Both the position numbers and the translations under genes were made by a program. A stretch of DNA of 48,749 nt from a virus: positions 1-48,749 of the IMG/VR virus record IMGVR_UViG_3300025133_009854. One strand, given 5' to 3'. Below the pieces are notes generated by a model, which saw only the letters and a program-made list of their open reading frames with translations, searched no databases and was not told the DNA's origin. Positions 3,722 through 42,334 of the stretch are shown piece by piece (the first letter of the stretch is position 1; each line of letters starts with the position of its first letter).

Positions 3722-4306
3722 TTATTCATCATCCTCGTCGAGAAGGCCCATACTTTTAAGGTAGTTCCTCACCAGGACATTAACAGGAACCCCAGTGATG
3801 TTAGTGATCCAACTATCCGCTGTGAAGGGCTTATCGAGGTCGAGATTCTTCTCTGTCGCTGGCAGCCAACCAGACGGACGTCTTTTCGCTGCTTCGCGGA
3901 TTAACTCTTTTAGCTGTCCTAGTTTTATCTTCATCTTGCCTTCCTCGAACTTTGTAGGAGCATCCTGCATATCTTGACGCTTCCACTCCCTCTCGGTGGC
4001 GGTGACTTGTCGTTCAATATCACGTTCCCGTTCGGGGGTCTGATGAGACCGATCGTCCCCGGGGGCGTCGCCGAAAACTTGACTGTAGGCTTCATCACCC
4101 TCGGGATCAGGGATGTCCATCTTAAACATCACATCCAGTTTGGACTTTTCGTGCGGGTTGGTTATGATGATGGGGTCATCGTTCTGGAAGTTCCCGCCCT
4201 CTTCCTTGGGTGCACTGATCACCACATCCACAGTCCAAGGCTTGTTCGAGAACTGTGTCAAGCGTTCCCGTATCAGCTGTCTTAGCTGTGCTTCTGTGAG
4301 CTTCAT
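3722..4306 (-). CDS. N-terminal-motif protein with two copies of the motif
   Basis: 194 residues. It starts with the shared motif (MKLTEAQLRQLIRERL) and carries a second full copy near residue 124 (MKIKLGQLKELIREAA). The region between is acidic and looks disordered. The C-terminal 60 residues (PFTADSWITNITGVPVNVLV..YLKSMG) may fold. The second copy begins with Met, so the gene may be a fusion of two family members or have an internal start. ATGA overlap with the upstream gene. Function unknown. Confidence 0.75.
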   Translation of the reverse strand: MKLTEAQLRQLIRERLTQFSNKPWTVDVVISAPKEEGGNFQNDDPIIITNPHEKSKLDVMFKMDIPDPEGDEAYSQVFGDAPGDDRSHQTPERERDIERQVTATEREWKRQDMQDAPTKFEEGKMKIKLGQLKELIREAAKRRPSGWLPATEKNLDLDKPFTADSWITNITGVPVNVLVRNYLKSMGLLDEDDE

Positions 4307-4629
4307 CTTCTTTCACTTTTCTTATAGCTTAAGTAATCCATGTCGTCAATGAACTTCTTAATTTCGCCCACTGCCTCGTCTTTACTTTTCCAGACGCGCT
4401 CGCCGAGCCTGTCTCGGATAAAGTCTTTAGTAATCTCCTTGTAGCCATACTCCAGGCCCCGATGGTTTTGATCCAGGTATTCTTCTAACTCGAAGATTGT
4501 TGGGCCGGATCCGTAACCTGATCCTCTCACATTAGATGAAGCATGACCACCCATACTTCCCCCGCCGAAAGTATACTCATTGAGCTCCTCGCGGATGATC
4601 TGTTGTAATCTGGCGCTTGTGATTTTCAT
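4303..4629 (-). CDS. N-terminal-motif protein, Gly/Ser-rich linker
   Basis: 108 residues from the ATG at 4629, which directly starts the motif MKITSARLQQIIREEL. A Gly/Ser-rich linker follows (about 20-45), then a helical domain (FELEEYLDQNHRGLEYG ... KKFIDDMDYL). An upstream in-frame ATG at 4659 would overlap the preceding gene and displace the motif, so it was not used. No family recognised. Confidence 0.7.
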   Translation of the reverse strand: MKITSARLQQIIREELNEYTFGGGSMGGHASSNVRGSGYGSGPTIFELEEYLDQNHRGLEYGYKEITKDFIRDRLGERVWKSKDEAVGEIKKFIDDMDYLSYKKSERR

Positions 4630-4633
4630 GTTA

Positions 4634-5029
4634 TTATCTGTCACCCGCTGCTTGGGCATCTAACTCAACTTCTTCATCGCCCTCGCTGTGGAGTTTTTGT
4701 GCTTCCTCTATGGCGATCAATATCTCTTCTGCTTCAGTTGCACCACCCATCATTCTAAGTGGGCGAGCCAGTCTTTCCATTGCTAGATCAAGAGCATTTG
4801 GGTTTACTTCGTATGCTGCTTCTTTGAATCCATCACTGTCATCGCCATGATTATAATATGCTGAAACAATCTGATCAACTTGTTCCTGCACAGCTGTGCC
4901 AAGTGATGCGTAAGCCTTTGCAAAGTCTATAAGCTCTGAGCCTGTTTCAACTGCCATTCCCCACGATTCATTTATGTGGTTCAATTCTTCCTGAATGATC
5001 TGTTGTAGTTTTCTTTTTGTGATTTTCAT
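4634..5029 (-). CDS. N-terminal-motif protein, helical
   Basis: 131 residues starting MKITKRKLQQIIQEEL; AAGGG lies 7 bases upstream. The rest is predicted helical and acidic, rich in Ala, Glu and Asp. No catalytic motif. Member of the cluster between 1 and 6974 in which unrelated bodies share the same first 16 residues. Confidence 0.75.
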   Translation of the reverse strand: MKITKRKLQQIIQEELNHINESWGMAVETGSELIDFAKAYASLGTAVQEQVDQIVSAYYNHGDDSDGFKEAAYEVNPNALDLAMERLARPLRMMGGATEAEEILIAIEEAQKLHSEGDEEVELDAQAAGDR

Positions 5030-5039
5030 GTTTTTTCCC

Positions 5040-5615
5040 TTACATTGAGTCCATTATGAAGGCGCGCAGTTGGTCCTCGTCATCGAAGTGCCAGAGCAGC
5101 TCATCCCACTCATCTGCCTGAAAGTGGTGTTGAGCGGAATCCGCAAGGTCGAAAGCAACAACATCTATAGGATATTCTTGATCGCCTGCAGCGTGATCTG
5201 CTTCCCAACCTCTGGCGGCATCATCTGCCCACTTACGAAGGCGTTCTTTTAGGCTGTCGATGTCCAGTCTTTCTTGGTCGGTCTGATCTGCAGCGCGTTG
5301 CTTCTCACGCTCTGGTCTATCATAGACATCATCGATGTGACCCTCAAGCTTTTCGAAATCAGCGCTGCTAAGTTCGATGCTTCGTTCAGTTCCGTCTTTG
5401 TCATCGCCTCGAACGGACAGACTAAGCTTTTCGATAAACTCATCGGCTTTAGCGGCAGGTATGCCTCTTTTAGTTCCCGCGCCGATGTAAAGCACCTCGC
5501 CGGTTTCTACATCAACGATATCAATTGTGTCCAGGTCGTTGTCAGCTTGCTCGCCAAGAACTCGTGTGAGCTCCTCCTGGATGATTTGCTTAAGTTTGCC
5601 TGCTGCGATTTTCAT
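5040..5615 (-). CDS. N-terminal-motif protein, acidic
   Basis: 191 residues from the ATG at 5615 (AAGGAG 6 bases upstream), starting MKIAAGKLKQIIQEEL. Next comes a small beta segment (IDIVDVETGEVLYIGAG), then long acidic helices rich in Asp, Glu and Arg, and a Trp/His-rich acidic C-terminus (WDELLWHFDDEDQLRAF). An upstream in-frame start at 5663 would overlap the previous gene and lacks a site. Function unknown. Confidence 0.75.
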   Translation of the reverse strand: MKIAAGKLKQIIQEELTRVLGEQADNDLDTIDIVDVETGEVLYIGAGTKRGIPAAKADEFIEKLSLSVRGDDKDGTERSIELSSADFEKLEGHIDDVYDRPEREKQRAADQTDQERLDIDSLKERLRKWADDAARGWEADHAAGDQEYPIDVVAFDLADSAQHHFQADEWDELLWHFDDEDQLRAFIMDSM

Positions 5616-5625
5616 TTTAATCTCC

Positions 5626-6345
5626 TTATTCGTACCCGAAATCTTTAGCAGTGCCAACGGCACGTGTCATAATAAAATCTTCACTGTATTCTTCGACAGC
5701 GCGTTCAACCCAGCTAGGACGACCACGCTTTGTGTATTGCTCAGGGCCTACCTTAACCATGATGATATCTCTAGCGACTTCCTGTGCAGAGACTTGACCT
5801 TCTGCAGCACTGACTGGGAAATCTTCGAGTGCTTTCGTCATCAATTCGTCAAAATCATCAAGCGCTGATCCTGGGGCTGCTCCGCTGTCAGTTCCTTGTC
5901 GGGAACCTTCCAGTTCAATTTCTCGCACAATATCAGCTATGGATTTTGTCATTGGGACGTTGCGCTCAAGGATATCCTGGACATCTTGTCCGTATTCTTG
6001 CTCGTCTTCCTTGCTTAGCTTCCCAGAAGTATAAGCTTCCAGCCCAAGCATAATGACGTCTAACACTAGTCCCATATTCTCAGATTCAGATTCAGCTTCT
6101 GTTCTTCGATACGATGTTTCAGATAAAGAGCCGAGCTCCTCTTGAATCATTTGTCTAAGCTGTCCTGCTGTGATTTTCATGGTTGATTCTCCAATTTCTA
6201 TTGCGGCGATTTGCCCTTGCATTTTCTTTTTACTTGTATGACAAGCACGGTGCTTCTTGCCTTTTTTATCTGTGTAAGTGAGCACATATTTGCCCAGGTC
6301 GCCGTCTGACTGTTTGCATTTCTGTGTATGCTTCTTGTAGGGCAT
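5626..6345 (-). CDS. N-terminal-motif protein with extra basic N-terminal domain
   Basis: 239 residues. The first 55 form a basic, Cys-containing module (KYVLTYTDKKGKKHRACHTS) like small phage 'KGKYVLY..KGK..' domains. The shared motif MKITAGQLRQMIQEEL then starts at residue 56. Both the ATG at 6345 (GAGG, spacing 8) and the internal ATG at 6180 (GGAG, spacing 8) have ribosome-binding sites, so two products are possible. The remainder is acidic and helical. The internal start may be the ancestral one. Confidence 0.75.
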   Translation of the reverse strand: MPYKKHTQKCKQSDGDLGKYVLTYTDKKGKKHRACHTSKKKMQGQIAAIEIGESTMKITAGQLRQMIQEELGSLSETSYRRTEAESESENMGLVLDVIMLGLEAYTSGKLSKEDEQEYGQDVQDILERNVPMTKSIADIVREIELEGSRQGTDSGAAPGSALDDFDELMTKALEDFPVSAAEGQVSAQEVARDIIMVKVGPEQYTKRGRPSWVERAVEEYSEDFIMTRAVGTAKDFGYE

Positions 6346-6461
6346 TGTTAAACCTCGCTGTTCATAAGTATCATTTTACTGGGATAAATGTTATTGTTTT
6401 TCAAGCCCGTGGCACATGTGAGTGTTTTCTCTTCTTATCGTCAATCGGCACAGACATCTGC

Positions 6462-6974
6462 TTATCGTAATCTCGCACTCCGTCTCCGCCTGGAACCGGT
6501 GTTTGAGCAGCGCCTCTTCGTCCTGTTTGGTGTGGCTTTCAGTCGCTGCGGGTTTGGATCAGACTCCGCCTGCTCGTTTACATTCTCATTTCTTCTCTTG
6601 GAAGGTGTTACATGTCCAGGCAAGCTTTTTCGATGCTTTGGTTCTTTGGCCTTATGGCCTTTAACCTTCTGTCCAAGCTTTGCTAGATTTTTTAATTCTT
6701 TGTTGGTGATCTCGCCGCTATACAAAGCCCATGCTGCTCCACCATAACTCTTTATCTTTCTCTCAGCTGCTTTTCGAGCTTTTCCTCGCTTCATGCGAGC
6801 AGAGTATGCGATTCCAGCAGCCATTTGTTGAGCTTGAGATTCTGTGGATCCTTGCTCCCGGTACGGCGGTGGCCCGTCTGTCTTTGAAGCAGACCGAGTT
6901 GATGACTTTCTTTTCTCTTGAAGTATCAGCTCTTCTCGAATGATAGCTTTAAGCTCAGAGAGTTTAATTTTCAT
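6462..6974 (-). CDS. N-terminal-motif protein with DUF3008-like region
   Basis: 170 residues from the ATG at 6974, starting MKIKLSELKAIIREEL. Residues about 48-125 (QAQQMAAGIAYSARMKRGK, WALYSGEITNKELKNLA, LPGHV) follow the pattern of DUF3008-like phage proteins. The C-terminus turns into an Arg/Ser-rich run (RRCSNTGSRRRRSARLR) that looks out of frame; other minus frames over 6401-6560 are open and read more naturally, so a frameshift near the end is possible. Confidence 0.6.
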   Translation of the reverse strand: MKIKLSELKAIIREELILQEKRKSSTRSASKTDGPPPYREQGSTESQAQQMAAGIAYSARMKRGKARKAAERKIKSYGGAAWALYSGEITNKELKNLAKLGQKVKGHKAKEPKHRKSLPGHVTPSKRRNENVNEQAESDPNPQRLKATPNRTKRRCSNTGSRRRRSARLR

Positions 6975-7050
6975 GGCAGGCCCTTCCCCTTCAATACAAT
7001 CTAACAAACAATAAATATCACTTATCGCTCATAAAAGATCGTTTGGAGAT

Positions 7051-7275: not shown

Positions 7276-9177
7276 TTAATCTCCGCCGGATTCGATATCT
7301 ACTGCATGTTCAAAATCTGATTTTTCATCTATAACACCTACTGGGGGTATTTCTTTGTCGCCCTCAAAAACCCATCGGATCTCTTCGGCGTCAATAGTTT
7401 CCTTCTCCATCAAGCTCTCAGTCATGAAATCAATCTTGTCCTTGTGTGTAACTAAAATGTGTTTCGCATCTCTAATACAAAGATCGATGATCTTGCGAAT
7501 CTCATCGTCCAGCTGCTTAGCTGTCTCGTCACTGCACTCACTTCGCCTAGACATTGCCATCTCACGACCCAAGAACACATTCTCATTTCCTGATCCCATA
7601 TAGATGGGTCCAAGAGACGACATGCCGAAATCTCGGACCATGCGTGATGCTATTTGTTTAACTCGCTTTAAGTCATTGGAGACACCTGTGGTTGAGCCTT
7701 TTTCACCGTAATACATGCGCTCAGCCAGATATCCGCCAAGAAGAACTTTAATTCGATCTTCGTATTCCTGCCAAGTTGAAGAGTACTTATCTTCCTCGGG
7801 TAGCTGCATGGTTAATCCGAGCGCTCGGCCGTGAGGAATAATCGTCACTTTGTGAAGAGGATCAGATGACGATGTGTAGTAAGCAACAACCGCATGACCC
7901 GCTTCATGACGAGCAGTAGCAAGCTTTTGCTCTTCAGACATTGCCATAGATTTTCTTGGTGCGCCCATCGTAATCTTGTCTCTTGCTGTTTCAAAATCCT
8001 GCTGGCCGACTCTGTCGGCATCTCGTCGGCCGGCCATAAGTGAGGCCTCATTGATAAGATTTGCTAAGTCAGCTCCTGAAAATCCGGGGGTAGATTTAGC
8101 AACTATCTTTAGATCAACAGCAGGATCAAGAGGCACATCTTTTGCGTGCACATCGAGGATCATTTTGCGACCCTTGATATCGGGTAGAGGTACTACAACT
8201 TGACGATCGAATCGGCCAGGCCGAAGAAGCGCGGGGTCTAAAACATCTGGGCGGTTAGTTGCTGCAAGAACAATAATACCGCTATTATCTTCAAATCCAT
8301 CTAGCTCAACCAGTAACTGATTTAATGTCTGCTCTCGCTCATCATGTCCGCCACCCATGCCGGCGCCTCGTTGTCGACCGACAGCATCGATCTCGTCGAT
8401 GAAAATAATACAAGGTGCATTTGCTTTAGCTTGAGCGAATAAATCTCGAACTCGGCCGGCGCCGACTCCGACAAACATCTCGACAAAATCCGACCCGGAC
8501 ATACTGAAGAAGAATACATTAGCTTCGCCAGCCACAGCTTTTGCAAGAAGTGTCTTTCCTGTGCCTGGGGGGCCCGATAGCAACATGCCGGTGGGCATTT
8601 TACTGCCCAGCTTATAATACTTCTTTGGATTCCGGAGGAAATCGACGACTTCCTCTAAGTCTTCTTTTGCTTCATCGCACCCTGCAACATCTTTAAAAGC
8701 AGTAGTGTTAGATCCTGGAGGGATTATTTTGTGCTTGCTTTTGTTAAAGTCCATTGCTTTGCCCTGGTTCTTTCCCATGCTCTTAATGAACAAAAAGAAG
8801 ACGCCAAAGATGAGAATGAAAGGCAGGATATTGATAATAAGCGCCCAGAACATGTTCGGTCGAACTTGAGGTTTAATTATAAGTCTCAATCCCGGGTGAT
8901 GCTTTTGAGTCAGCTCCAGCAAATTCTCAGTAATGGGACCAACTGTTATCAACACTCTATCTATTTCAGGTTGATTCAATTCCCACTGGTCCCCTTCGAT
9001 CGTGAGAACAGCGGGAGGGTCAGAGTTCTCTGGCAGATCTTGAATAATCTTCACCATCTCTGTATAACTGATCTTTTCTTTTTGTACTTTCACCCCTTGG
9101 GGAAATGAGATCAGCGCAAAAATACACAAAAATGCTGCGAGCCAAATAAGCCAAGTTTTAGATCTAAAAATTTGCAA
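7276..9177 (-). CDS. ftsH: FtsH-type ATP-dependent membrane zinc protease
   Basis: 633 residues, full length for FtsH. TM1 about 9-25, an extracytoplasmic domain to about 105, TM2 about 110-132. The AAA module has Walker A GPPGTGKT (202-209), pore loop MFVGVG (234-239), Walker B IIFIDE (257-262) and [21 protein letters not shown] (308-325). The M41 protease has HEAGH (424-428) and a third ligand, D502 in SNDLKRV. All catalytic residues are intact. Start is TTG at 9177, with GGGAG 9 bases upstream and no in-frame ATG until codon 41. The family degrades membrane and regulatory proteins; a phage copy may remodel the host membrane. Confidence 0.97.
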
Positions 9178-9243: not shown

Positions 9244-9672
9244 CTAATTTTGAAGTATTTCTCGAGTTTCAACGAGGCTAATAAGTGAAGCCTGGGAAGA
9301 AATTCTTCCTCCTGCGCGATAAGACCCAATACTGATTACAAAAAATTTATTTTCTGGGAGAGGGTCGCCGTTAGACTCACAACAAAATCTAACTTTTACT
9401 TCGTATTCTTGACGTGTTCCCGGCATGGAGGTTCTGTCTATAACAGTTATTTCTGGACGATCATTAGCAGCAGCCCTTAAATCTTGAGAGTAAAGATTCA
9501 GTGCCATAAAATGATTTAATCCGCTTTGAGCAGAAATTTTTGCTAACGTGTGACGACGGGCGTTTCCCGAAATAAGTGCATTGTCTCTTGCTGACGCCCA
9601 CAACACTGCAGAGAAAGAAGATATAATTACCAGCATCATCATGGTGATAATAAAAGCGAAACCTTTTCTCAT
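9244..9672 (-). CDS. Type IV pseudopilin-like protein (PilX/GspK-like)
   Basis: 142 residues. The N-terminus MRKGFAFIITMMMLVIISSF is a prepilin signal: a short basic leader, Gly before a likely cleavage site, then an unbroken hydrophobic helix. Glu at mature position 5 is absent, as in GspK-like minor pilins. The following NARRHTLAKISAQSGLNHFM resembles the PilX 'A..AAE.GL' helix. The C-terminal domain is beta-rich with a CC pair. Its start overlaps the upstream secreted protein (ATGA). A role in a pilus or surface tip is inferred from the signal only. Confidence 0.7.
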   Translation of the reverse strand: MRKGFAFIITMMMLVIISSFSAVLWASARDNALISGNARRHTLAKISAQSGLNHFMALNLYSQDLRAAANDRPEITVIDRTSMPGTRQEYEVKVRFCCESNGDPLPENKFFVISIGSYRAGGRISSQASLISLVETREILQN

Positions 9673-10040
9673 GGATTAATTTGCATGTTAAGGATAAAAT
9701 TTTGTCTTCTGACATTTCCTTGGTTTGGGCCGGCGCCGGACCTAGCATCAATTACAGGAAAATTTTTCTTGACCCACTTCTGAGTTTTGGCAGCGCATCG
9801 ATCTTCCCCATACCCACCACGTACACACATTGACTCAGTCGCTTTTACAACTTCGCAAAAACATCTCATTTGATTGTCTCGCCACTGCTCTGGGGAGTAT
9901 CGGTAGATTACTCCTCTCGGAACTCTTGTATTAGTTCCAGGTAGATACTTGGAGCATACAATTTCAGATTCTGGATGAAAGAATGGCAATCCTGTTGCCA
10001 AAAGAGTTGATGTTATCAATGTTATCAGTTTAAGTCCCAT
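9669..10040 (-). CDS. Small secreted Cys-containing protein coupled to the pseudopilin
   Basis: 123 residues. A Sec-type signal peptide (MGLKLITLITSTLLATGLPF) is followed by a region with five Cys, including CFC. No known domain recognised. Stop and start of the pseudopilin gene overlap (ATGA), so the two are made together. It could be a pilus-associated or periplasmic partner. Confidence 0.65.
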   Translation of the reverse strand: MGLKLITLITSTLLATGLPFFHPESEIVCSKYLPGTNTRVPRGVIYRYSPEQWRDNQMRCFCEVVKATESMCVRGGYGEDRCAAKTQKWVKKNFPVIDARSGAGPNQGNVRRQNFILNMQINP

Positions 10041-10445: not shown

Positions 10446-10742
10446 TTAGGATTCTTGCAAGCGCTTATGTGTGTGTTGTTTTCTCAGCGCTAGAATACCT
10501 TGAGTAAGATTTCCGATGAAGATGTGCCCGCAGATAATCCCGAAAGCTAACCAGTCAGCATGGACGGCTAGCATGTAAAGCGCGGCGATGGCACCGGTAC
10601 CAAAGTACCAGAAACAGGCTGGTACATTGATTGCATCAGCAGTTGGTGAATCTACAATTGCTTTGATTACCGGATAGTACCAAAAATAATTTAGCACTTG
10701 AGTCACAACATACAAGCCTATCAAGAACTCAATAGCAGTCAT
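10446..10742 (-). CDS. PQ-loop/SemiSWEET-like membrane protein
   Basis: 98 residues with three hydrophobic segments (about 3-22, 43-62, 67-86). Between TM1 and TM2 lies VIKAIVDSPTADAINVPA, matching the SemiSWEET/PQ-loop pattern (Q-V-x-K-x-x-K/S-x-x-A-x-x-I-S/N-x-P). The protein at 24870-25148 is a paralog with the same loop. SemiSWEETs are half-transporters that dimerise to move sugars; the substrate is unknown here. ATGA overlap with the upstream gene. Confidence 0.7.
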   Translation of the reverse strand: MTAIEFLIGLYVVTQVLNYFWYYPVIKAIVDSPTADAINVPACFWYFGTGAIAALYMLAVHADWLAFGIICGHIFIGNLTQGILALRKQHTHKRLQES

Positions 10743-10951
10743 TGAACCTTTTTTCTATTTCGAATATGGCCGATTTGATGAATCTGGACGTATTGTGCTC
10801 TTATCCTTCTTAGCTCACCTTCATGCAAGACAGTAACAATCTTCATGTAGGGCTTATACTCTTCAGTAATGATACCATACTTCCAATCCGTCAATTCTTG
10901 GGTTCGATGATTAATGATATCTCGAAACCGAACCATGTCACCTTCTCTCAT
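10739..10951 (-). CDS. GDLV-family small protein (70 aa)
   Basis: Begins MREGDMVRFRDI, then YGIITEEYKPYMKIVTVL and LRRIRAQYVQI, with a basic tail. GDMV replaces GDLV. Its stop overlaps the PQ-loop gene start. Confidence 0.75.
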   Translation of the reverse strand: MREGDMVRFRDIINHRTQELTDWKYGIITEEYKPYMKIVTVLHEGELRRIRAQYVQIHQIGHIRNRKKVQ

Positions 10952-10971
10952 TTAGATTATCCGCTCTTTTT

Positions 10972-11166
10972 CTAACTGGAAGAAATCATTCTAACAAGGT
11001 GTGCCGGAAAGTATTTCTTTTTTCCGTCAAATAGAATGTCATATGCTGGACATCTTTCAGAATGATATTCTTTTAAGATTACGCCGTATCTAGGCTTGTT
11101 ACATTTGAATTGCGCGAGAAGAAGAATCAAATCTCCTGGACAGGGACGATCAAGTTGATGATTCAT
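10972..11166 (-). CDS. GDLV-family small protein (64 aa)
   Basis: From the ATG at 11166: MNHQLDRPCPGDLILLLAQ, then RYGVILKEYH, YDILFDGKKKYFPAHLVRMI. Full family pattern. A longer in-frame start at 11211 would overlap the upstream gene by 62 bases and is less likely. No clear ribosome-binding site for either. Confidence 0.65.
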   Translation of the reverse strand: MNHQLDRPCPGDLILLLAQFKCNKPRYGVILKEYHSERCPAYDILFDGKKKYFPAHLVRMISSS

Positions 11167-11341
11167 CGCATAGTTCACAATCAAGTATGTGAATCCATTG
11201 AGGTTCTTCATTTATCAGCACCCAGCAAAATGATGCAGCAAAACCAGTATCTTCTAAAACTAGTCCGGCGCGACCTGAAAATACGCCGTCTAGGACTTTA
11301 ACTAGATCGCCTTTAACAAGACTAGGTGCTTTGCCGATCAA
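11150..11341 (-). CDS. GDLV-family small protein
   Basis: The region KGDLVKVLDGVFSGRAGLVL ... CWVLINEEPQWIHILDCEL is a clear family match. There is no ATG: candidate starts are TTG at 11341 (GAGG 5 bases upstream, used here) and TTG at 11371, which overlaps the upstream stop. Confidence 0.65.
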   Translation of the reverse strand: MIGKAPSLVKGDLVKVLDGVFSGRAGLVLEDTGFAASFCWVLINEEPQWIHILDCELCDESST

Positions 11342-11360
11342 TGCGTCCTCTCGTTCCTTC

Positions 11361-11693
11361 TCAGTTCTCAATCAGATCAAGTAGATCTTTTCTGATTCCT
11401 AAGACAACACCGTCTGAATCTCTGGTGTACCTAACATATTTGAAGCGCGATAAACTGTCGATCGTTTCTTTGGGCGCTTTGGGAAATAGTACCTTGGCTT
11501 CGATATCTGATTCTGTGATAACCCCAGTCCATGACTTGTGTTCTCGGCACGTAACTCTAGATCCGGGCACCCAGCCCTTGGGCGAAGGGGTGCTATCTTT
11601 TTGAGGTGTTTTAGCAGAAGTTTTGTCAGATGTTTTGACAGACACTTTCTTTTGTGCTGTCTTCTTTTTCGCTTTTTGTTTTTTCTTAGACAT
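11361..11693 (-). CDS. Lys-rich N-terminal arm plus GDLV-like domain
   Basis: 110 residues from the ATG at 11693. The first 40 residues are very rich in Lys, Ser and Thr (MSKKKQKAKKKTAQKK...), like a nucleic-acid-binding tail. The rest (PGSRVTCREHKSWTGVI ... YTRDSDGVVLGIRKDLLDLI) has the GDLV-family strand order. This suggests the family can be joined to a nucleic-acid-binding arm. Confidence 0.65.
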   Translation of the reverse strand: MSKKKQKAKKKTAQKKVSVKTSDKTSAKTPQKDSTPSPKGWVPGSRVTCREHKSWTGVITESDIEAKVLFPKAPKETIDSLSRFKYVRYTRDSDGVVLGIRKDLLDLIEN

Positions 11694-11874
11694 GCAAATC
11701 GTCACTCAAAACAAGATTGACTTCTTGCGATTCAAACCACATTTGTTGGCCTGCAACGAGGACTTGATACGCTTCTAAGTAATCGTCAAACTCTCTTCGA
11801 TCAATGATCATCGCCACTTGACCGTCAAATCCAGAATGACGTGAGTTAACAACAACTAGGTTTCCGGGTGACAT
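11686..11874 (-). CDS. GDLV-family small protein (62 aa)
   Basis: Starts MSPGNLVVVNSRHSGFDGQV, then AYQVLVAGQQMWFESQEVNLV. AGGA lies 6 bases before the ATG, inside the end of the upstream gene. Confidence 0.75.
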   Translation of the reverse strand: MSPGNLVVVNSRHSGFDGQVAMIIDRREFDDYLEAYQVLVAGQQMWFESQEVNLVLSDDLHV

Positions 11875-12146
11875 ATCTTTTCCTGGTCAAGGTGGTCCCA
11901 ATATTCCTCGAACGATGAATCATACCACCCCCGAACAATCTTGTTCATAACGAGAACATCGATGACAGGATTCCCTTCTTCATCTTCATAAACAGCAGTA
12001 ACCACGGCGGGCGTAAGCTCAGGAATGTTCAAGATATCCCCGTTGGCGTCTGCGCCGGTCCATTGTATTGGGCCTGTGGACGTATCGACCCACTCGGCGA
12101 ATCGTACGAGATCACCTGGTTTGAAAATCACCGACTTACCGGACAT
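11856..12146 (-). CDS. GDLV-family protein (96 aa)
   Basis: Longer member: MSGKSVIFKPGDLVRFAEW, then a 30-residue insertion with ILNIPELTPAVVTAVYEDEE and IDVLVMNKIVRGW. GGAGCG precedes the ATG. A TATAAT hexamer lies at 12169-12174 just upstream, but no matching -35 is visible. First gene after the T3SS-like cassette. Confidence 0.7.
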   Translation of the reverse strand: MSGKSVIFKPGDLVRFAEWVDTSTGPIQWTGADANGDILNIPELTPAVVTAVYEDEEGNPVIDVLVMNKIVRGWYDSSFEEYWDHLDQEKICHPET

Positions 12147-12168
12147 AGATAGCGCTCCGAACGCTCTA

Positions 12169-12570
12169 TTATACCTGGGTTTGTAGAGTTTGTTTTATGC
12201 CATCAGTTGCTTTTTCGACCACTTTGGAGGTCAGTTCTAGCTCTTGGCTGAACTTATATACGCCGGCCTGAATTGCTAGCAGTTCAGTAGGATTAAACTG
12301 TTTTCCAGAAGTTGCAAGCTTGATAATCTTGTCTAGCTTTCCTTGTCCGGACATGACGCTAGATAAAACTCTTGTTAGATTTGCATCTTTTGTCTTGTCT
12401 ACCCGGAGCTCCTGCTTGATCTCTGCGGTCTTTTGGGTGGAAGGTATATTATCCATCGATGCCGAAGAGGAAGTTTGTTTCAGAACATCTTGGAAGCTCT
12501 TGGGTGTACTCTGGGCTTTAACTGGTTGATTTGCTGTAGGCAGTTGTATGTTTAACCCTGAAATTTCCAT
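12169..12570 (-). CDS. sctI: Type III secretion inner-rod-like protein (YscI/HrpB/SctI family)
   Basis: 133 residues. The C-terminal 55 residues match the YscI/HrpB C-terminal domain: GKLDKIIKLATSGKQFNP, then ELLAIQAGVYKFSQELEL and TSKVVEKATDGIKQTL, with the family's NP-x-x-L-L-x-x-Q ... E-L-x-x-K pattern. The N-terminal half is Ser/Gln-rich and looks disordered, as is usual for SctI. In T3SS this protein joins the needle to the secretion machine. The two upstream genes end in needle-like helices, matching the needle-then-rod gene order of T3SS operons. TAATG overlap with the upstream stop. Homology is inferred from pattern recognition, not a search. Confidence 0.7.
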   Translation of the reverse strand: MEISGLNIQLPTANQPVKAQSTPKSFQDVLKQTSSSASMDNIPSTQKTAEIKQELRVDKTKDANLTRVLSSVMSGQGKLDKIIKLATSGKQFNPTELLAIQAGVYKFSQELELTSKVVEKATDGIKQTLQTQV

Positions 12571-13052
12571 TATCGAACGTTGTTAATTGCGTTCTTCGCA
12601 GTGTCGTGCTTGGTTTTCATCACGTTTGAGATCGTGCTAAATTGCCTGTTCTCACCCTGCATCTTGTTCTGGAGGGTTAGATACTGGAGGTTGAAGCTCA
12701 TCTGCATCTCTTGCATAGCTTTGGTTTGATCCATCAAGGTCTGCGTTGATGATCCGCCGGTTTGACCTGCAGGTGTATTTAAGCTGGGTGATTGACCTGG
12801 AACGTTCATTGTACCATTACCTGCGTAGTTGCCGATTGCTTCAGCTGCTTGACTTACAGTAGCATTGACAACTGATCCCCCTGGAACATAAGGTGCTGCA
12901 ACTCCGACCGCACCTGCTACTACTCCTGCTGCGTTTGATGCGCCCCGGCCGACCATTGCGCCGAAATCGTTTCTTGCAGTTTGGCGAGTGTGCATAGCTT
13001 CTGAGGTTATGCGAATTGAACCGCCGTTATTTAGTCTATTAATACCTGGCAT
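12570..13052 (-). CDS. T3SS needle-like (SctF-like C-terminus) extended protein
   Basis: 160 residues. The N-terminal two thirds contain a Gly/Ala-rich hydrophobic stretch (AAGVVAGAVGVAAPYVPGG) and a Pro/Gly/Ser/Thr linker. The final 33 residues align without gaps to the C-terminal helix of needle proteins PrgI/MxiH as I recall them, sharing Q-x-K, N, S-N-x-x-K, D, and the ending I-x-N-x-R (here ISNVMKTKHDTAKNAINNVR). Needle proteins are usually about 80 residues, so this is an extended form. AAGGA precedes the ATG. Could also be a translocator-like protein. Paralog at 13063-13881. Confidence 0.6.
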   Translation of the reverse strand: MPGINRLNNGGSIRITSEAMHTRQTARNDFGAMVGRGASNAAGVVAGAVGVAAPYVPGGSVVNATVSQAAEAIGNYAGNGTMNVPGQSPSLNTPAGQTGGSSTQTLMDQTKAMQEMQMSFNLQYLTLQNKMQGENRQFSTISNVMKTKHDTAKNAINNVR

Positions 13053-13062
13053 TTTATTTTCC

Positions 13063-13881
13063 TTACCGGATGTTTCTAATTGACGTCATGCTCATGTCGT
13101 GCATTGTCTTGAGAACATTAGAGATCAAATCATGCATCTCTTTGCGCTTATTCATAGCTTGCTGAATCTTGAAGTTGATAACTGATCTGCTGTGATCGAC
13201 ATCTCCTGCGGGTTTTCTGCCGAACATCGAACTACCTATGCCGCCGCCGAATGCCGAACCTAACTTTGATCCGATTGGGCCGCCAACTAATCCGCCCAGA
13301 ACTCCGCCGCCGAGCGTGACAGCCTTTGAAGCGAGAGATTTAAAGGCGCTCTTGATGCCGCCGAAGATCCCGCCTTTCTTCTTACTCTTCTTCATGGACT
13401 CATACTTCTTAATCAGCGATTTAAGCTCTTTCTCAGAATCGCGCATTTGTTTGAAGAGGAAAGCTGCCAGCATATCCTCGAAGGATGCTCCTGGGCCGAC
13501 TAGAGAATCCATGTCGCCGCCTTGCTTTTGAATCTGGCCCCTGAGAATGTTTCCGGCTGATGCGCCGCCGGATCTAATCAAGTTCATGATCTCACTGTCC
13601 ATTGCCCGAAGCGCAGATCCTAAGGTTGTACGTGCAGTATTTTGCGAGTAAGTGTGACCGCATTGCCGGCGGGATCTTGCAATTGCTCGGGAAGGCCTGC
13701 TTAAAAACTGCTGTGTGGTTTGACCGGAGAATAAGTCCTTCCAGTTTTGAACTGCCCCTGAGATGTTTAGGGTTGCTAGATCTACTTGGGCTCCTGCAAT
13801 ATCTCCGACTGCATCCGGATAACCGAGTTTGTCTAGTGTTTTGTTGAGCCGAGTTCCGAGCGAATTAATTCCAACTACCAT
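13063..13881 (-). CDS. T3SS needle/translocator-like protein with Gly-zipper segment
   Basis: 272 residues. The C-terminus (MHDLISNVLKTMHDMSMTSI then RNIR) shares the same S-N-x-x-K ... I-x-N-x-R ending as the next gene. Before it is a Gly-rich hydrophobic region (LGGGVLGGLVGGPIGSKLGS), preceded by Lys-rich helices (FKQMRDSEKELKSLIKKYES) that resemble a coiled coil. Coiled coil plus hydrophobic hairpin is the plan of T3SS translocators and of membrane-inserting phage proteins. GGAGG lies 9 bases before the ATG. It begins the three-gene cassette. Confidence 0.6.
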   Translation of the reverse strand: MVVGINSLGTRLNKTLDKLGYPDAVGDIAGAQVDLATLNISGAVQNWKDLFSGQTTQQFLSRPSRAIARSRRQCGHTYSQNTARTTLGSALRAMDSEIMNLIRSGGASAGNILRGQIQKQGGDMDSLVGPGASFEDMLAAFLFKQMRDSEKELKSLIKKYESMKKSKKKGGIFGGIKSAFKSLASKAVTLGGGVLGGLVGGPIGSKLGSAFGGGIGSSMFGRKPAGDVDHSRSVINFKIQQAMNKRKEMHDLISNVLKTMHDMSMTSIRNIR

Positions 13882-13953
13882 GTTTGAGGACCTCCCGTTT
13901 GTGTATGTCCTATATCTATTACCGGTAGTTTTACGGAAAAGTTTCCTCTTTTT

Positions 13954-14175
13954 TTAGTTTTTTTTTGTTTTTGTTGGAAAATCAACGGGCTGGAAGCCTT
14001 CTTTGAGTAGCTCTAGTTCGTCTTTTTCAGCATATGCTCTGCGACCATCGTCGTACAAAACTTCAAATTCCCAGTAATAAGTTACTGAATCTGTGTCTGT
14101 CCAGTATATATCTTTCTTGATGATCATCCCGGGTCGAAATATCGAGTAATCGTAAACCAAGTCACCGACTTTCAC
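13954..14175 (-). CDS. GDLV-family small protein (73 aa, GTG start)
   Basis: MKVGDLVYDYSIFRPGMIIK, then YYWEFEVLYDDGRRAYAEKDELEL and a Lys-rich tail. The GTG start overlaps the upstream stop as GTGA. Confidence 0.75.
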   Translation of the reverse strand: MKVGDLVYDYSIFRPGMIIKKDIYWTDTDSVTYYWEFEVLYDDGRRAYAEKDELELLKEGFQPVDFPTKTKKN

Positions 14176-14477
14176 GAGACCACCAGAACCTTTGCAAGAA
14201 TGTGTGTCCTGTTTTCGTCTACTGCTCTTTGCAATCTGTGATGCCCATCAAGAATGCTCTGGATCTCTCCTTCTTGCTCTATCGCGATGATCGGAAAAGA
14301 TAAGTCTGCGGTTTCCTTCCGATGCTGTTCAATAATCACGTTAGATATCAGGGTTAATGGTTCGACTTCTAGCAAAACAATCGGCTCATCTTGCAGTGCT
14401 GCCAGAACATCTTGGATTGTTACTCTGTTTCCTTTTTCATCTTCCCAGAATGTTTTCTCCCAATCACTTAATTTCAC
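14172..14477 (-). CDS. ParB/sulfiredoxin-fold-like protein
   Basis: 101 residues from the GTG at 14477, which overlaps the upstream stop (GTGA) and has GGAGGT 5 bases upstream. The C-terminal half (FPIIAIEQEGEIQSILDGHH then RLQRAVDENRTHILAKVL) has the ParB/Srx core D-G-x-H-R, which in ParB contributes to nucleotide binding. There is no HTH domain, so it is not a full partition protein; single-domain ParB-like nucleases or regulators are common in phages. Lies among GDLV genes. Confidence 0.7.
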   Translation of the reverse strand: MKLSDWEKTFWEDEKGNRVTIQDVLAALQDEPIVLLEVEPLTLISNVIIEQHRKETADLSFPIIAIEQEGEIQSILDGHHRLQRAVDENRTHILAKVLVVS

Positions 14478-14662
14478 GGGATCACCTCCAAGGTCCACCA
14501 AGGCGGGTCAAAATGACCGAAGGTCCATCTTCCGCCCTCGCTGTAAAAAATTAACGGACACGATTTCGATAGGATCGGGTAGTCCTCATCGCATATATAC
14601 ACGCCGCGGGCGATACAATCGTCATCTCTAGAAATTATTCTAACGAGGTCACCTGGCTTCAT
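14474..14662 (-). CDS. GDLV-family small protein (62 aa)
   Basis: MKPGDLVRIISRDDDCIARG, then LIFYSEGGRWTFGHFDPPWW. Family member with a Trp-rich end. Overlaps the previous gene by 14 bases; its own end holds the ribosome-binding site of the ParB-like gene. Confidence 0.75.
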   Translation of the reverse strand: MKPGDLVRIISRDDDCIARGVYICDEDYPILSKSCPLIFYSEGGRWTFGHFDPPWWTLEVIP

Positions 14663-14831
14663 TGACTACTTCAATTGTCCATTGGTTGTCAAAATGGTGT
14701 ATTTCCCCCTTGAAGAAAACAGTCGTTGATCGCCCAGAAAAAGGATCAGTCCACGCATCGTAAAGATAGATTCCGATCCCGAGGTTGTTGTCATCGAATC
14801 CAACAATGCTGACAAGATCACCAGCGTTCAT
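14649..14831 (-). CDS. GDLV-family small protein (60 aa)
   Basis: Start at the ATG at 14831 (ATGA overlap with the upstream stop): MNAGDLVSIVGFDDNNLGIG, then TTVFFKGEIHHFDNQWTIEV. Very similar in layout to the next gene product. Confidence 0.75.
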   Translation of the reverse strand: MNAGDLVSIVGFDDNNLGIGIYLYDAWTDPFSGRSTTVFFKGEIHHFDNQWTIEVVNEAR

Positions 14832-15157
14832 ACAGCTTCCTTTAGCTCGTCGTATATCTGTTGAACTACATCTGCTGGGACCCATCCAGCGACATTATCA
14901 TACTCATCCCAGAACTTAGACCAGGGCTTCTTCTTCATGTCTGTCTCCATAGACGGGTTCAACCAAGCAGAGTCATTTGAAAGAAGTGCAATCTCAAAGG
15001 TTTCATAATCGTAAGGTAGTAAATTATCAGCTCTTGGTGAACAATAATTTTGAGAGCTGGCGACAACTGAAAGCTTCATTCCGCCTCGGAGATGCAGCTG
15101 GGCGTGGCACTTTCGCATTCCTGGGCGCAACATATAGTTTCTAAAATCATCTTTCAT
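14828..15157 (-). CDS. Conserved phage-type hypothetical protein
   Basis: 109 residues from the ATG at 15157, overlapping the upstream gene by 11 bases. The core MRKCHAQLHLRGGMKLSVVA, then SPRADNLLPYDYETFEIALL and VAGWVPADVVQQIYDEL, resembles a common phage protein of unknown function with an L-x-L-R-x-G-M-x-L-S-V-V strand. Longer in-frame starts reach 15226 but would overlap more. Confidence 0.65.
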   Translation of the reverse strand: MKDDFRNYMLRPGMRKCHAQLHLRGGMKLSVVASSQNYCSPRADNLLPYDYETFEIALLSNDSAWLNPSMETDMKKKPWSKFWDEYDNVAGWVPADVVQQIYDELKEAV

Positions 15158-15344
15158 CGATTGCTTCAAGCTGGCTTTTGAATATCCACCATCGCCCAGT
15201 AGTAAAGAGTACAAGTGCATGCTCATAGCCGACTTCGTCTTCTATGATATCAATCACAATTCCAGGGGACTCAGGTACAGAATTATCCGCCAGCCCAAAT
15301 ACTTTGCTGCTGTCCCTAAGCGCGACCAAGTCCCCGGGCTTCAT
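15147..15344 (-). CDS. GDLV-family small protein (65 aa)
   Basis: MKPGDLVALRDSSKVFGLAD, then PGIVIDIIED and HALVLFTTGRWWIFKSQLEAI. ATGA overlap with the upstream stop. Confidence 0.78.
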   Translation of the reverse strand: MKPGDLVALRDSSKVFGLADNSVPESPGIVIDIIEDEVGYEHALVLFTTGRWWIFKSQLEAIDER

Positions 15345-15529
15345 TTGTCTGGCTCTTCTTTCACAGGAATAAGACTATCTATTCTCTCTTTTTGGCATAG
15401 AAGTCCCCCAGTAGTTAAAACCCACATCACGGACACAAAATTTTTGTCATCGTGTTCGCGAACAACTTCGCCCCAGGCAAATAGAATATCTGCTCCGGTT
15501 TTTGGCTTTACTTTTGTCCCTACATTCAT
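15341..15529 (-). CDS. GDLV-family-like small protein (62 aa)
   Basis: MNVGTKVKPKTGADILFAWG, then VSVMWVLTTGGLLCQKERID. GTKV takes the place of GDLV. The ATG at 15529 has GGAGG 10 bases upstream; a TTG at 15538 overlapping the upstream stop is the alternative. Confidence 0.68.
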   Translation of the reverse strand: MNVGTKVKPKTGADILFAWGEVVREHDDKNFVSVMWVLTTGGLLCQKERIDSLIPVKEEPDK

Positions 15530-15534
15530 ATTTT

Positions 15535-15822
15535 TCAACCCTCCGAAAGTGAGCAGTCTACGCTGGTTCTAGGTTGCTCAATATAGATCTCCTTTTGACG
15601 CCTCGTCAAGCTTTTAAATCTATATTCAGCTTTAGAGGCGGTGGATCTGTCATAATAATTATCTGAGAAGATTAGGTTTACTGGACGTCTTGACCTGGTG
15701 TATTTTGCCCCTCTTTTAGACTCATTATGCTCTTTTACTCTTCTGGCTAAGTCTGTGGTGATCCCTGTATAGTAAGTGCCGTCGGCACATTCTACTACGT
15801 ACATGTACCAGTCATCGCTCAC
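15535..15822 (-). CDS. GIY-YIG nuclease domain protein (UPF0213-like)
   Basis: 95 residues, GTG start. The single GIY-YIG domain is clear: WYMYVVECADGTYYTGITTD then LARRVKEHN, GAKYTRSRRPVNLIFSD and ASKAEYRFKSLTRRQKE (candidate Arg and Glu of the active site). Size and form match stand-alone UPF0213/YhbQ-like proteins. Such proteins may cut DNA or process repair intermediates. It interrupts a run of GDLV genes. Confidence 0.9.
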   Translation of the reverse strand: MSDDWYMYVVECADGTYYTGITTDLARRVKEHNESKRGAKYTRSRRPVNLIFSDNYYDRSTASKAEYRFKSLTRRQKEIYIEQPRTSVDCSLSEG

Positions 15823-16165
15823 TGACTACCTCTAAGTCTTCTCTGTGTATGTAGAACTTCTGGCCTGTTCGTGGGCAAGCAAGATAAGCGCACTTGGGAA
15901 TTCCGTTGCCCCAACCAACTCGAGCATGTGCTCGAGCTCTGAGCACTAGGAATGATTCGCCCACTTTGAGATCAATCCACCGCGTTTGAGGAGCTAGCTT
16001 GGGTTCGCCGGAACTGTCGTGCCACGTAGTGAGCCCAGCATGGATATCACGAGTTAGTTCTTTTCGCCACTCTTCTTGTTCTTGCTGTGTCGTAGATCGG
16101 AAACCCGTAACATCTCCATACTTGTGGACTACAGCTTTCACCCTTACAAGATCACCTTTTTTCAC
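15812..16165 (-). CDS. GDLV-family protein, extended (117 aa)
   Basis: Starts MKKGDLVRVKAVVHKYGDVT (GTG start, GTGA overlap). It has a helical insertion (QEQEEWRKELTRDI) and an R-H-A-R segment before the closing CPRTGQKFYIHREDLEVV. Longest member with a simple GDLV start. Confidence 0.7.
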   Translation of the reverse strand: MKKGDLVRVKAVVHKYGDVTGFRSTTQQEQEEWRKELTRDIHAGLTTWHDSSGEPKLAPQTRWIDLKVGESFLVLRARAHARVGWGNGIPKCAYLACPRTGQKFYIHREDLEVVSER

Positions 16166-16353
16166 TTTGTCTTATCTTCTTTTTTGTATCCCGGGGTTTG
16201 AGATGCAGTTAGTTTTACAAGCTTTCTTAAAATACCTGACGCTAAATCATCATTTTGAGTAATGGTTGTATCTGGTAAGCGGTGGTTCGCATATTGAGCT
16301 ACGGCATGCCAGCGCAATATTTCATTACATTCTTCTTTGTTAAGCTCTATCAA
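16162..16353 (-). CDS. Small hypothetical protein (63 aa)
   Basis: Helical: ELNKEECNEILRWHAVAQYA, then LASGILRKLVKLTAS. TTG at 16353 is used because AAGGAG lies 9 bases upstream; TTG at 16359 is possible. Its stop overlaps the next start (GTGA). Function unknown. Confidence 0.6.
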   Translation of the reverse strand: MIELNKEECNEILRWHAVAQYANHRLPDTTITQNDDLASGILRKLVKLTASQTPGYKKEDKTK

Positions 16354-16374
16354 CTGCAATAACTCCTTTTCTCT

Positions 16375-16659
16375 CTAGACACGATCTTCTTTTTCATTGT
16401 AGTGTGACAGTGTACCCCTAATGCTTTCTCCGTAAAGCTCAATGCAGGGCTTGCCCTTAAACGGATCTTTTTGATTTATAGAAAATGTTGGTTTTCTAAC
16501 CCATAAAAATCGGTGTTTTTTCCACGAGTCACCTTCTTCGTATACATGCTGGAAGGATCCCACGTATTGCACAAGCCCCTCGATGCCCTTAAACCAGTGA
16601 TTAAACCTATAGATCTTTCCAGGCTGGAGATCGCTAACGTATACTTTTCTGTTTTTCAT
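16375..16659 (-). CDS. Small hypothetical protein (94 aa)
   Basis: Opens MKNRKVYVSDLQPGKIYRFN, then EGLVQYVGSFQHV, FLWVRKPTFSI. P-G-K-I-Y at the start is reminiscent of a distant GDLV-type barrel, but the match is weak. No clear ribosome-binding site. The 84-base gap upstream (16660-16743) holds nothing I can name. Confidence 0.6.
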   Translation of the reverse strand: MKNRKVYVSDLQPGKIYRFNHWFKGIEGLVQYVGSFQHVYEEGDSWKKHRFLWVRKPTFSINQKDPFKGKPCIELYGESIRGTLSHYNEKEDRV

Positions 16660-16743
16660 TTCGCAATCGCCATATTTTCTACAAAGATTAATAAACTGAT
16701 TTCTTTCGCTTTGAATTCATCGCTGATTCTAGTGAATCTGTTC

Positions 16744-16947
16744 TTAGGTGTTTGAGCTACCTTCACTTACTAGCGTCAAGTTTGATCCCAAAGCATGCAT
16801 CTTCTTTCCTGACGACATGAAGAGATCATACTCAGCACGATAGTAGCACTTTATAATTATACCAGACTCTCCACCAGCTTTACAGTACTCTTTTATCTGG
16901 ACAAGATCGCCGTTCTTAAACTGGTCTTTATAAGAATCGCAAGGCAC
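16744..16947 (-). CDS. GDLV-family small protein (67 aa, GTG start)
   Basis: MPCDSYKDQFKNGDLVQIKE, then SGIIIKCYYRAEYDLFMSSG and MHALGSNLTLV. The GTG follows the upstream TAA directly. Confidence 0.72.
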   Translation of the reverse strand: MPCDSYKDQFKNGDLVQIKEYCKAGGESGIIIKCYYRAEYDLFMSSGKKMHALGSNLTLVSEGSSNT

Positions 16948-17178
16948 TTATTGTTTGTCCACTGAGATTCTGCCTTCAGTGACATCTCGATGTGCTTTTA
17001 TCAATTTAGCAACTATCATAGCAGTGTCTTCAGGCGAAAGGCCCTGCAGTTGTTTCTCTTCATTTAAGTTGACAAACTCAAGATGCCCGGTTGCGGTTGG
17101 TTGGACCCCGCTGAATGTGTACTGCTTTCCATCTATCTCGGCTTTGATTATTGTTACTACTTTTTTTTCTTTGCTCAT
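16948..17178 (-). CDS. Small hypothetical protein (76 aa)
   Basis: Beta-strand start (VVTIIKAEIDGKQYTFSGVQ) followed by a helix (SPEDTAMIVAKLIKAHRDV). AAGGAG precedes the ATG at good distance. No family recognised. Confidence 0.65.
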   Translation of the reverse strand: MSKEKKVVTIIKAEIDGKQYTFSGVQPTATGHLEFVNLNEEKQLQGLSPEDTAMIVAKLIKAHRDVTEGRISVDKQ

Positions 17179-17206
17179 CTTAGTCTCCTTGTTTTATGAG
17201 TCTAAA

Positions 17207-17377
17207 CTAATTATTCTCAAGCTCATCTTCGAACACTTTATAAGCAGCATCAAAACAAGTTCCACACTCATCTGCGATTCCCAGAAGCTCCATCAGGTCA
17301 ACAAAGTCATCGTAGCCGCTGGTAACAGCTTTTCGAATTTCTTTATCTGATACTGCTCTACGGGCACAGATTATCAT
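17207..17377 (-). CDS. BFD-like [2Fe-2S]-type small protein, one Cys missing
   Basis: 56 residues, below usual length cut-offs. MIICARRAVSDKEIRKAVTS then FVDLMELLGIADECGTCFDA closely follows bacterioferritin-associated ferredoxin: Cys, helix SDKEIRKAV, then C-x-x-C (C38, C41). The family's first pair is C-x-C; here only C4 remains and Arg stands at position 6, so cluster binding is uncertain. AAGG lies 6 bases before the ATG. In hosts Bfd releases iron from bacterioferritin; a phage role is unknown. Confidence 0.6.
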   Translation of the reverse strand: MIICARRAVSDKEIRKAVTSGYDDFVDLMELLGIADECGTCFDAAYKVFEDELENN

Positions 17378-17412
17378 TCAAAGCCTTCTCCGGATTTATT
17401 ATAACGAGCAAA

Positions 17413-17661
17413 CTATTTTTTTTGCACTAAAATATTATTAGGATCAATTTCATAATCCTGGGGTGCTTTTTCTAGCCATCTCTCGTCGATCTCACGAGGT
17501 TCTTCGTTCTGGAATTTTACCCAGTACACATTCGATCTCCACGGAGATCTGTCTTGAGAAATCTTAAATATAAACCCTAGTTTGCCGGAATCTTTGTTCG
17601 GGTTTTTCAAAAAAACATATCGAACAAGATCACCTGGAATGAAGTGTCTAGAGTCACACAT
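17413..17661 (-). CDS. GDLV-family small protein (82 aa)
   Basis: MCDSRHFIPGDLVRYVFLKN, then KLGFIFKISQDRS, NVYWVKFQNEEPREIDERWL. Full family pattern with a C-terminal extension. Confidence 0.75.
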   Translation of the reverse strand: MCDSRHFIPGDLVRYVFLKNPNKDSGKLGFIFKISQDRSPWRSNVYWVKFQNEEPREIDERWLEKAPQDYEIDPNNILVQKK

Positions 17662-17836
17662 GCTGCTTTAATAATTCGTGCGGGGCGAAAGCACGAAGTT
17701 CGCTATTTACAAGAACAGTAAACCTTCGACTATAATGAGCAGTATCATTAACTTGCACGATAACGCCTTTTGAACCGTGCAAAGAGTCGGGCGGCGGGAT
17801 CATCCTGATTTCGACTAGATCACCCTTTGTCAGCAC
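17654..17836 (-). CDS. GDLV-family small protein (60 aa, GTG start)
   Basis: MLTKGDLVEIRMIPPPDSLH, then KGVIVQVND and FTVLVNSELRAFAPHELLKQ. Overlaps both neighbours. Confidence 0.75.
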   Translation of the reverse strand: MLTKGDLVEIRMIPPPDSLHGSKGVIVQVNDTAHYSRRFTVLVNSELRAFAPHELLKQHV

Positions 17837-18041
17837 GTTCCACCAGTACTAACTTATTGTCATAGACAAATTCTTTTAATCCGTTGCTAAACAAAATTTC
17901 GTAAACATCTCGAACGTTATGCCCGTATCGGTGTGCCATTACGATTGGCCACGTATTAGAAAACTTAAGAACAACACCGGTCATTTCTGAATTGTTGTGG
18001 AAAACAAGGTCTCCAGGGTAGAACTTTTTTCTCTTTCCCAA
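17820..18041 (-). CDS. GDLV-family small protein (73 aa, TTG start)
   Basis: MGKRKKFYPGDLVFHNNSEM, then TGVVLKFSN and VYEILFSNGLKEFVYDNKLV. Basic first residues. The TTG is 2 bases after the upstream stop. Confidence 0.72.
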   Translation of the reverse strand: MGKRKKFYPGDLVFHNNSEMTGVVLKFSNTWPIVMAHRYGHNVRDVYEILFSNGLKEFVYDNKLVLVERADKG

Positions 18042-27078: not shown

Positions 27079-27393
27079 TTACTCTTCAACCTGAACTAGG
27101 ACTATGCCTTTTTCAAATCCGCCCCGAGAGGTGCGCTTATTACATTTAACTTCGATGACATCCTCGATCTTGAGATCCAGCTTCTTTCGAAGGGAGTCAA
27201 CGACCTCCATCAGATCAGCCATTTCCTCTGGACAAGGATTCTCGAAAAGCTCTTCCATCTCTTCTAAGATCTTGAGTCTATAATACTCTTCGATCTCCTC
27301 AGATTTCATTTTCCGAGTCTTGCATGTTTTTCCCGCTTCCTTGATAATCATCGGGATCTTGTCGCGGACTAGCTTGTTATATTTTTTTATCAT
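27079..27393 (-). CDS. MazG-like / phosphoribosyl-ATP pyrophosphohydrolase-like protein
   Basis: 104 residues. YNKLVRDKIPMIIKEAG is the family opening, followed by KILEEMEELFENPCPEEMAD and LMEVVDSL with the E-E-x-x-E and D acidic residues that bind Mg in MazG-type folds. The family hydrolyses nucleotides or prunes alarmones; phage copies are common. Overlaps the next gene by 17 bases. Confidence 0.85.
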   Translation of the reverse strand: MIKKYNKLVRDKIPMIIKEAGKTCKTRKMKSEEIEEYYRLKILEEMEELFENPCPEEMADLMEVVDSLRKKLDLKIEDVIEVKCNKRTSRGGFEKGIVLVQVEE

Positions 27394-27574
27394 CTATTGG
27401 ATGCACTAACTCTGGTTCAATAAAATAGATTTCTCCATCTGACAGAATCTTGCAGCGTGTGTCTTCAAACGAATTGGGTGCTGCTGCAGGTTTACCTAGA
27501 AAGACTCCGAGAAATCGATAGTCAACGGGAAGATCGTCATCTTCAATCCAGACCATATCCCCTGGGATTATCAT
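27377..27574 (-). CDS. GDLV-family small protein (65 aa)
   Basis: MIIPGDMVWIEDDDLPVDYR, then FLGVFLGKP and CKILSDGEIYFIEPELVHPI. Family pattern with GDMV. TAATG overlap with the upstream stop. Confidence 0.75.
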   Translation of the reverse strand: MIIPGDMVWIEDDDLPVDYRFLGVFLGKPAAAPNSFEDTRCKILSDGEIYFIEPELVHPIDDKKI

Positions 27575-27801: not shown

Positions 27802-27803
27802 TT

Positions 27804-28396: not shown

Positions 28397-28414
28397 TTCT
28401 TTCTCCAGAGCTAT

Positions 28415-28717: not shown

Positions 28718-28772
28718 TTTTCTCCGAGAATTAAGTTGTGTGAAATCTATATACCAAGATTTTAGAATTTGT

Positions 28773-28940: not shown

Positions 28941-28941
28941 T

Positions 28942-29142: not shown

Positions 29143-29174
29143 CTACGCTTTATAACGCATAGGACGAAATTGTA

Positions 29175-39804: not shown

Positions 39805-42334
<2,530 letters not shown>

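Follow-up and report, generated by a model that had tools for sequence, protein, structure and literature searches.

A jumbo-phage cassette with relatives of Myxococcota type III secretion rod and needle-type proteins

In the classical type III secretion system (T3SS), the genes for the needle, the inner rod and SctJ follow one another, as in prgI-prgJ-prgK, and the canonical needle protein is about 80 aa long. Phages carry T3SS effectors and regulators, and phage superinfection-exclusion proteins act on pili. We know of no case of phage-carried structural injectisome subunits, and a search of the openly accessible literature found no report of a phage with structural filament subunits of an injectisome. 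Abby and Rocha (2012) described the Myxo systems as lacking SctF and the secretin, and counted sctI among the genes of the most basal systems (PMC3459982). T3SS* is called needleless in a 2024 review (PMC10849154) and again in a 2025 paper, which proposes pilus tips as a needle substitute (PMC12075869). Prey lysis by Myxococcus xanthus requires T3SS*, which acts together with the Tad-like Kil pilus; deleting T3SS* is reported to abolish lysis while killing persists (PMC12075869).

The window analyzed here is an entire IMG/VR record of 48,749 bases and is a fragment of a jumbo phage. Homologues of 50 of its 88 ORFs (at least 60 aa, overlaps removed) occur in the 235,681-bp viral contig G001, and the shared ORFs are largely collinear with 196-229 kb of that contig. 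In G001, genes for the large terminase subunit, the portal, the major head protein and the tail sheath are found between about 114 and 132 kb. Its copy of the cassette lies at 219-221 kb, amid small accessory genes.

The window encodes an FtsH-like protease (7276-9177), DnaJ (36026-37057), GroEL (40553-42151) and ClpB (45457-48054). A PilX-like minor-pilin protein (9244-9672; PF14341 E 1.3e-4, under the cut-off) and its neighbor (9669-10040) are both kept in the 235-kb phage; the former is of interest given that T3SS* and the Kil pilus cooperate in M. xanthus. The cassette is surrounded by a field of at least 13 small proteins that look like paralogues and carry a GDLV-type motif at the N-terminus (10739-18041 and 27377-29441). 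Otherwise differing proteins at 4303-7007 of the window and at 221038-221508 and 226335-228584 of G001 open with a motif of the type K-[IL]-x-x-x-x-L-[RK]-x-I-I-[RQ]-E-E-L, perhaps a common N-terminal tag. A Cys-rich lipoprotein-like protein with MopE-type motifs (31665-32906) and a trypsin-like protease (32984-33760) also occur in the 235-kb phage.

The cassette (12169-13881, minus strand) is a tight operon of three ORFs in the order P0003 (272 aa), P0002 (160 aa) and P0001 (133 aa), at the place originally given for them. P0003 and P0002 are spaced by 10 nt, and P0001 begins with an overlap onto the stop codon of P0002. Shine-Dalgarno-like sequences precede P0003 (GGGAGGT, within the operon leader at 13882-13903, minus strand) and P0002 (AAGGAAA). 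A consensus scan for promoters and terminators found sites no more numerous than in shuffled DNA.

Five viral contigs out of different metagenomes share the cassette, and each viral contig found with any member has the complete trio (the window/L002, L007 of G001, L003=L004, and L005). A search for the same trio in related phages thus found it jointly in four distinct lineages. Further viral scans with combined phage and host alignments added no cassette-bearing phages, and INPHARED contained no relatives, whether at the DNA level or of P0001, P0002 or P0003. Each gene of the cassette is under strong purifying selection (dN/dS 0.05-0.12 where computable, with synonymous sites close to saturation). 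In the L003/L004 lineage, P0003 and P0002 are separated by an additional 320-aa ORF (L008 8841-9803); it appears homing endonuclease-like by eye, and the cassette genes are intact.

P0001 (12169-12570, minus strand) resembles the inner rod protein SctI. Its best Pfam match is PF17001 (YscI/HrpB/PscI, E 0.0048), which aligns residues 59-132 to profile positions 19-94 of 94, and its single NCBIfam match is SctI NF038054 (E 0.0059). Both scores are under the curated cut-offs, as are those of individual phage relatives, and family relatives and context are therefore required to read them. PF17001 is matched by 22 of 33 phage and host rod-like proteins (best E 1.4e-5), while no other family recurs, and across six whole viral records the P0001-type gene is the sole PF17001 match in each. 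These results agree with the original assignment of the third gene as YscI/HrpB inner-rod-like.

The C-terminal helical region of P0001 (residues 75-133; 12172-12348, minus strand) is nearly invariant among the phages. A low-confidence AlphaFold model (pLDDT 53) superposes 58-59 residues at 2.3-2.4 Å on two T3SS needle-complex chains; among the chains aligned, only these, from the Shigella and Salmonella needle complexes, reach Z of at least 2 (Z 3.6 and 2.9). The model agrees with a rod fold, and we do not claim it as proof. P0001 resembles canonical SctI (PrgJ, MxiI, YscI) in its C-terminal helical region and in weak but specific matches to PF17001 and NF038054; it differs in scoring under the curated cut-offs and in its long, disordered-looking N-terminus.

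Cellular counterparts of the cassette occur in Myxococcota. A scan with P0001 over genomes of 84,980 species, each represented once, returned three Myxococcota contigs with 68-77% identity over the C-terminal part. The host homologues of the trio are about 55-64% identical overall and belong to T3SS-type operons. In L038 and L039 the needle-like gene comes first, and genes for a TPR protein, a small protein and a FliA-like sigma factor stand, in this order, between it and the rod-like gene. Among 195 Myxococcota genomes, the rod-like family occurs in 154 and the P0002 needle-like family in 158, often with two copies of each.

The Myxococcota loci take a short and a long form. The short locus of G082 encodes the needle-like protein, SctI and SctJ, then a SctQ-like protein, SctR, SctS and SctT, and it shares the needle-rod-SctJ order of the classical T3SS. 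The long locus of G144 (9.3 Mb, one contig) begins with the needle-like protein, a TPR chaperone, a small protein, a sigma factor, SctI and SctJ. It continues with a FliG-like protein, SctL, SctN, a SctQ-like protein, SctR, SctS, SctT and SctU, with SctV further on. NCBIfam models were used to check the assignments of SctJ, SctN, SctR, SctU and SctV. SctJ lies directly 3' of the host rod-like genes in the short (L074/L083) and long (L075/L153) loci, and a phmmer search with host SctJ found no such gene among the phage ORFs. In Myxococcus-sized genomes, a P0002-type gene heads the long locus (L153 2708-3277, i.e., G144:C1:2808707-2809276; L075 12080-12643) and directly precedes sctI in the short one (L074 10353-11093). 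The needle-then-rod order that was read from the phage DNA is thus that of host T3SS operons.

P0002 (12570-13052, minus strand) is the SctF-like needle candidate. It is 63-64% identical to a protein from the T3SS-type operon L038 of the Antarctic Myxococcota MAG ANT-56. Its C-terminal 40 residues (12573-12692, minus strand) form a needle-like helix (SNVMK...AINNVR), in which S142, N143, K146, K153, I156, N158 and R160 are invariant across 21 phage and host proteins. Four of the 21 family members match the needle family PF09392, and P0002 itself does not. In profile-profile comparison, the P0002 and host C-termini align with PF09392-positive proteins at 97-98% probability, versus 0.2% for the rod family as control.

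Run over whole genomes, PF09392 (E <= 0.1) picks out the P0002-type gene of the T3SS long locus as its sole match in G082 and in G094 and as one of three in G151, and Myxococcota proteins ending in the same C-terminal motif pass the curated PF09392 cut-off in G111 and G165. Phage matches reach at most 15 bits against a curated 29.4, and the phage proteins are therefore filed as needle-like rather than as family members. They share with canonical SctF (PrgI, MxiH, YscF) the S-N-x-x-K and I-x-N-x-R motifs at the very end of the protein and, for P0002, a gene position just upstream of the rod gene. P0002-type proteins are about 150-200 aa long; the two phage proteins that end in the motif are 160 and 272 aa, versus about 80 for SctF.

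An Arg_decarb_HB match of P0002 and its relatives is under the cut-off and was taken as a generic helical match. A poor AlphaFold model of the needle candidate (pLDDT 53) gave no useful fold match. When the PDB was searched by sequence with profiles, both small and large, for the rod family, the needle family and P0003, chance matches alone came back.

A needle-like C-terminal helix also ends many other proteins in 144 of 195 Myxococcota genomes. Their sizes run from 72 aa, in tandem ORFs close to TPR genes, up to 500-600 aa (e.g., L132 9247-9465, 10617-10835 and 11075-11293 in G104; L133 9741-11285 in G082; L096-L123). This helix may mark a whole set of T3SS-exported proteins.

P0003 (13063-13881, minus strand) is the phage form of a larger, needle-tailed protein of Myxococcota T3SS loci. 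Its last ~31 residues match PF09392 (T3SS_needle_F, profile positions 38-68 of 71, E 0.27), and PF09392 finds a cassette gene as its sole match in three of six whole viral records, including the 235-kb phage. In profile-profile comparison, the P0003 C-terminus aligns with PF09392-positive proteins at 98.0% probability. The C-terminal 40 residues (13066-13185, minus strand; SNVLK...SIRNIR) are identical to those of the G006 host protein at 38 positions. The first two genes had both been taken as needle-like; the C-terminal motif does end both, but P0003 is no plain needle: it is larger, and its C-terminus is a needle-like helix.

Full-length P0003 homologues occur in G006 (ANT-56, the genome of L038; E 2e-78) and G177 (E 1.6e-82, over two contigs). 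Both adjoin a TPR gene, a small protein and SctU, and the TPR proteins match the LcrH/SycD chaperone model TIGR02552 (E 6.6e-11 and 6.5e-7, under the cut-off). Remoter relatives in G007 and G008 retain the layout with a TPR gene and SctU. An internal block of ~90 residues that includes a DGRxDG motif is present in all five aligned host homologues and absent from all four phage lineages.

These results already contradict a chance likeness of short helices or a chimeric host/phage assembly, which we regard as extremely improbable. The single-sequence matches all fall under curated cut-offs and P0002 lacks a PF09392 match, as such a reading would have it, but the host homologues lie within T3SS-type operons at substantial overall identity. 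We reject a chimeric assembly because the cassette is present in five contigs and the window is for the most part collinear with the 235-kb phage. The observation is more than chance, and we judge it almost certain that the three phage proteins are related to the rod and needle-type proteins of Myxococcota T3SS.

The cassette could instead supply parts of the virion or its ejection apparatus, with needle-like and rod-like helical proteins in the particle or a channel at DNA entry. Gly-rich hydrophobic segments of P0003 and P0002 recall ejection proteins, and P0003 has weak tape-measure matches (E 0.003). These matches and one to PdsO fall in the low-complexity, Gly-rich part of P0003 and were set aside. 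In G001, roughly 90 kb separate the cassette from the genes for head and tail. Furthermore, the C-termini are near-identical to those of cellular T3SS proteins, which implies contacts with the host machine. A virion role is therefore improbable.

Another possibility is that the products leave through the host T3SS as cargo and act on neighboring or prey cells instead of on the host machine. The host P0003 gene adjoins an LcrH/SycD-like chaperone gene, as do the genes of secreted translocators. Among translocator models, P0003 matches only SseD (E 0.51), and it possesses a Gly-rich segment. The structural rod protein is always carried along, however, and we consider a cargo role quite improbable.

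Phylogenies point to a source within Myxococcota. The phage rod proteins form one clade (support 99/98) with ANT-56 as sister (95/82), and the phage needle-like proteins cluster with that of ANT-56, though less strongly supported (82/83). ANT-56 is the closest host, and since both trees place the phage proteins with it, the cassette was most likely acquired from a nearby Myxococcota lineage, judging by these sequence relationships. That lineage is likely also the phage host. The PrgI/MxiH-type (enteric) affinity originally suggested did not hold, as the host homologues place the source in Myxococcota T3SS (T3SS* and relatives).

Compared with the Myxococcota non-flagellar T3SS ('Myxo' loci, PMC3459982; T3SS*, PMC12075869), the phage has three homologous proteins and the same needle-before-rod order. 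It differs in lacking the base, ATPase, export gate, chaperone and sigma factor, in the missing block of P0003 and in an N-terminally shorter rod. phmmer searches of the 235-kb phage, the window and the other phage loci found no convincing relatives of host SctJ, SctK-like, SctL, SctN, SctQ-like, SctR, SctS, SctT, SctU or SctV proteins, TPR chaperones or sigma factors. The same searches upheld the earlier observation that no T3SS machinery accompanies the cassette. A SctN match at 149 kb of the 235-kb phage (E 0.008) is weak and likely reflects generic ATP binding. The phage thus carries solely parts that are exported in T3SS: a rod, a needle candidate and a needle-tailed protein.

We propose that, during infection, the three phage proteins would be exported through the T3SS base of the host itself and join the host rod and filament via their near-identical C-terminal helices. 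The resulting mixed filament would be altered because phage P0003 lacks the ~90-residue block, and the host machine would be disabled, capped or re-tuned. The contact helices are preserved (38 of 40 residues in P0003 and a near-invariant rod C-terminus) while the host-conserved block of P0003 is missing, although loss of the block need not mean inactivation. The phage could benefit if a surface structure were thereby hidden from rival phages, or if a costly predation programme were switched off. A predation role for the ANT-56-like host is carried over by analogy from Myxococcus. We assign a probability of roughly 0.5 to co-assembly with this net effect. The cassette would then share with phage T3SS effectors and pilus-acting superinfection-exclusion proteins the property of phage genes acting through or on a host surface machine. 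Among the functions first suggested for the cassette, action on a host secretion system fits best, whereas a new injection device is unsupported by the position of the genes.

The strongest rival is that the trio serves as auxiliary genes that maintain or improve the host machine, such that an infected predator keeps lysing prey and feeds a large burst. The strong purifying selection on all three genes would suit such a role, as would rod and needle proteins that are not obviously crippled. Jumbo phages also bear many host-support genes, here GroEL, ClpB, DnaJ and FtsH. Against it, phage P0003 lacks the block present in all aligned host proteins, and the machinery, chaperones and sigma factor that would raise T3SS output are not carried. 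We regard support of predation as unlikely.

Co-assembly with the host T3SS thus remains our preferred reading. The occurrence of a P0002-type protein at the head of the T3SS* operon suggests, from sequence and gene order, that it is a needle candidate and that T3SS*, although described as needleless, does possess a needle. The combined proposal, that jumbo phages of myxobacteria remodel the injectisome of an infected host with their own rod, needle and block-deleted secreted subunit and that the T3SS* needle is the P0002-type protein, is tentative and stands at somewhat less than even odds. Structural filament subunits of an injectisome, carried by a phage, would give viruses a novel means of interfering with a host weapon. 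Following up the phage genes also led to a needle candidate in 158 of 195 sampled Myxococcota genomes, at the head of the T3SS* operon, making the working of T3SS* directly testable.
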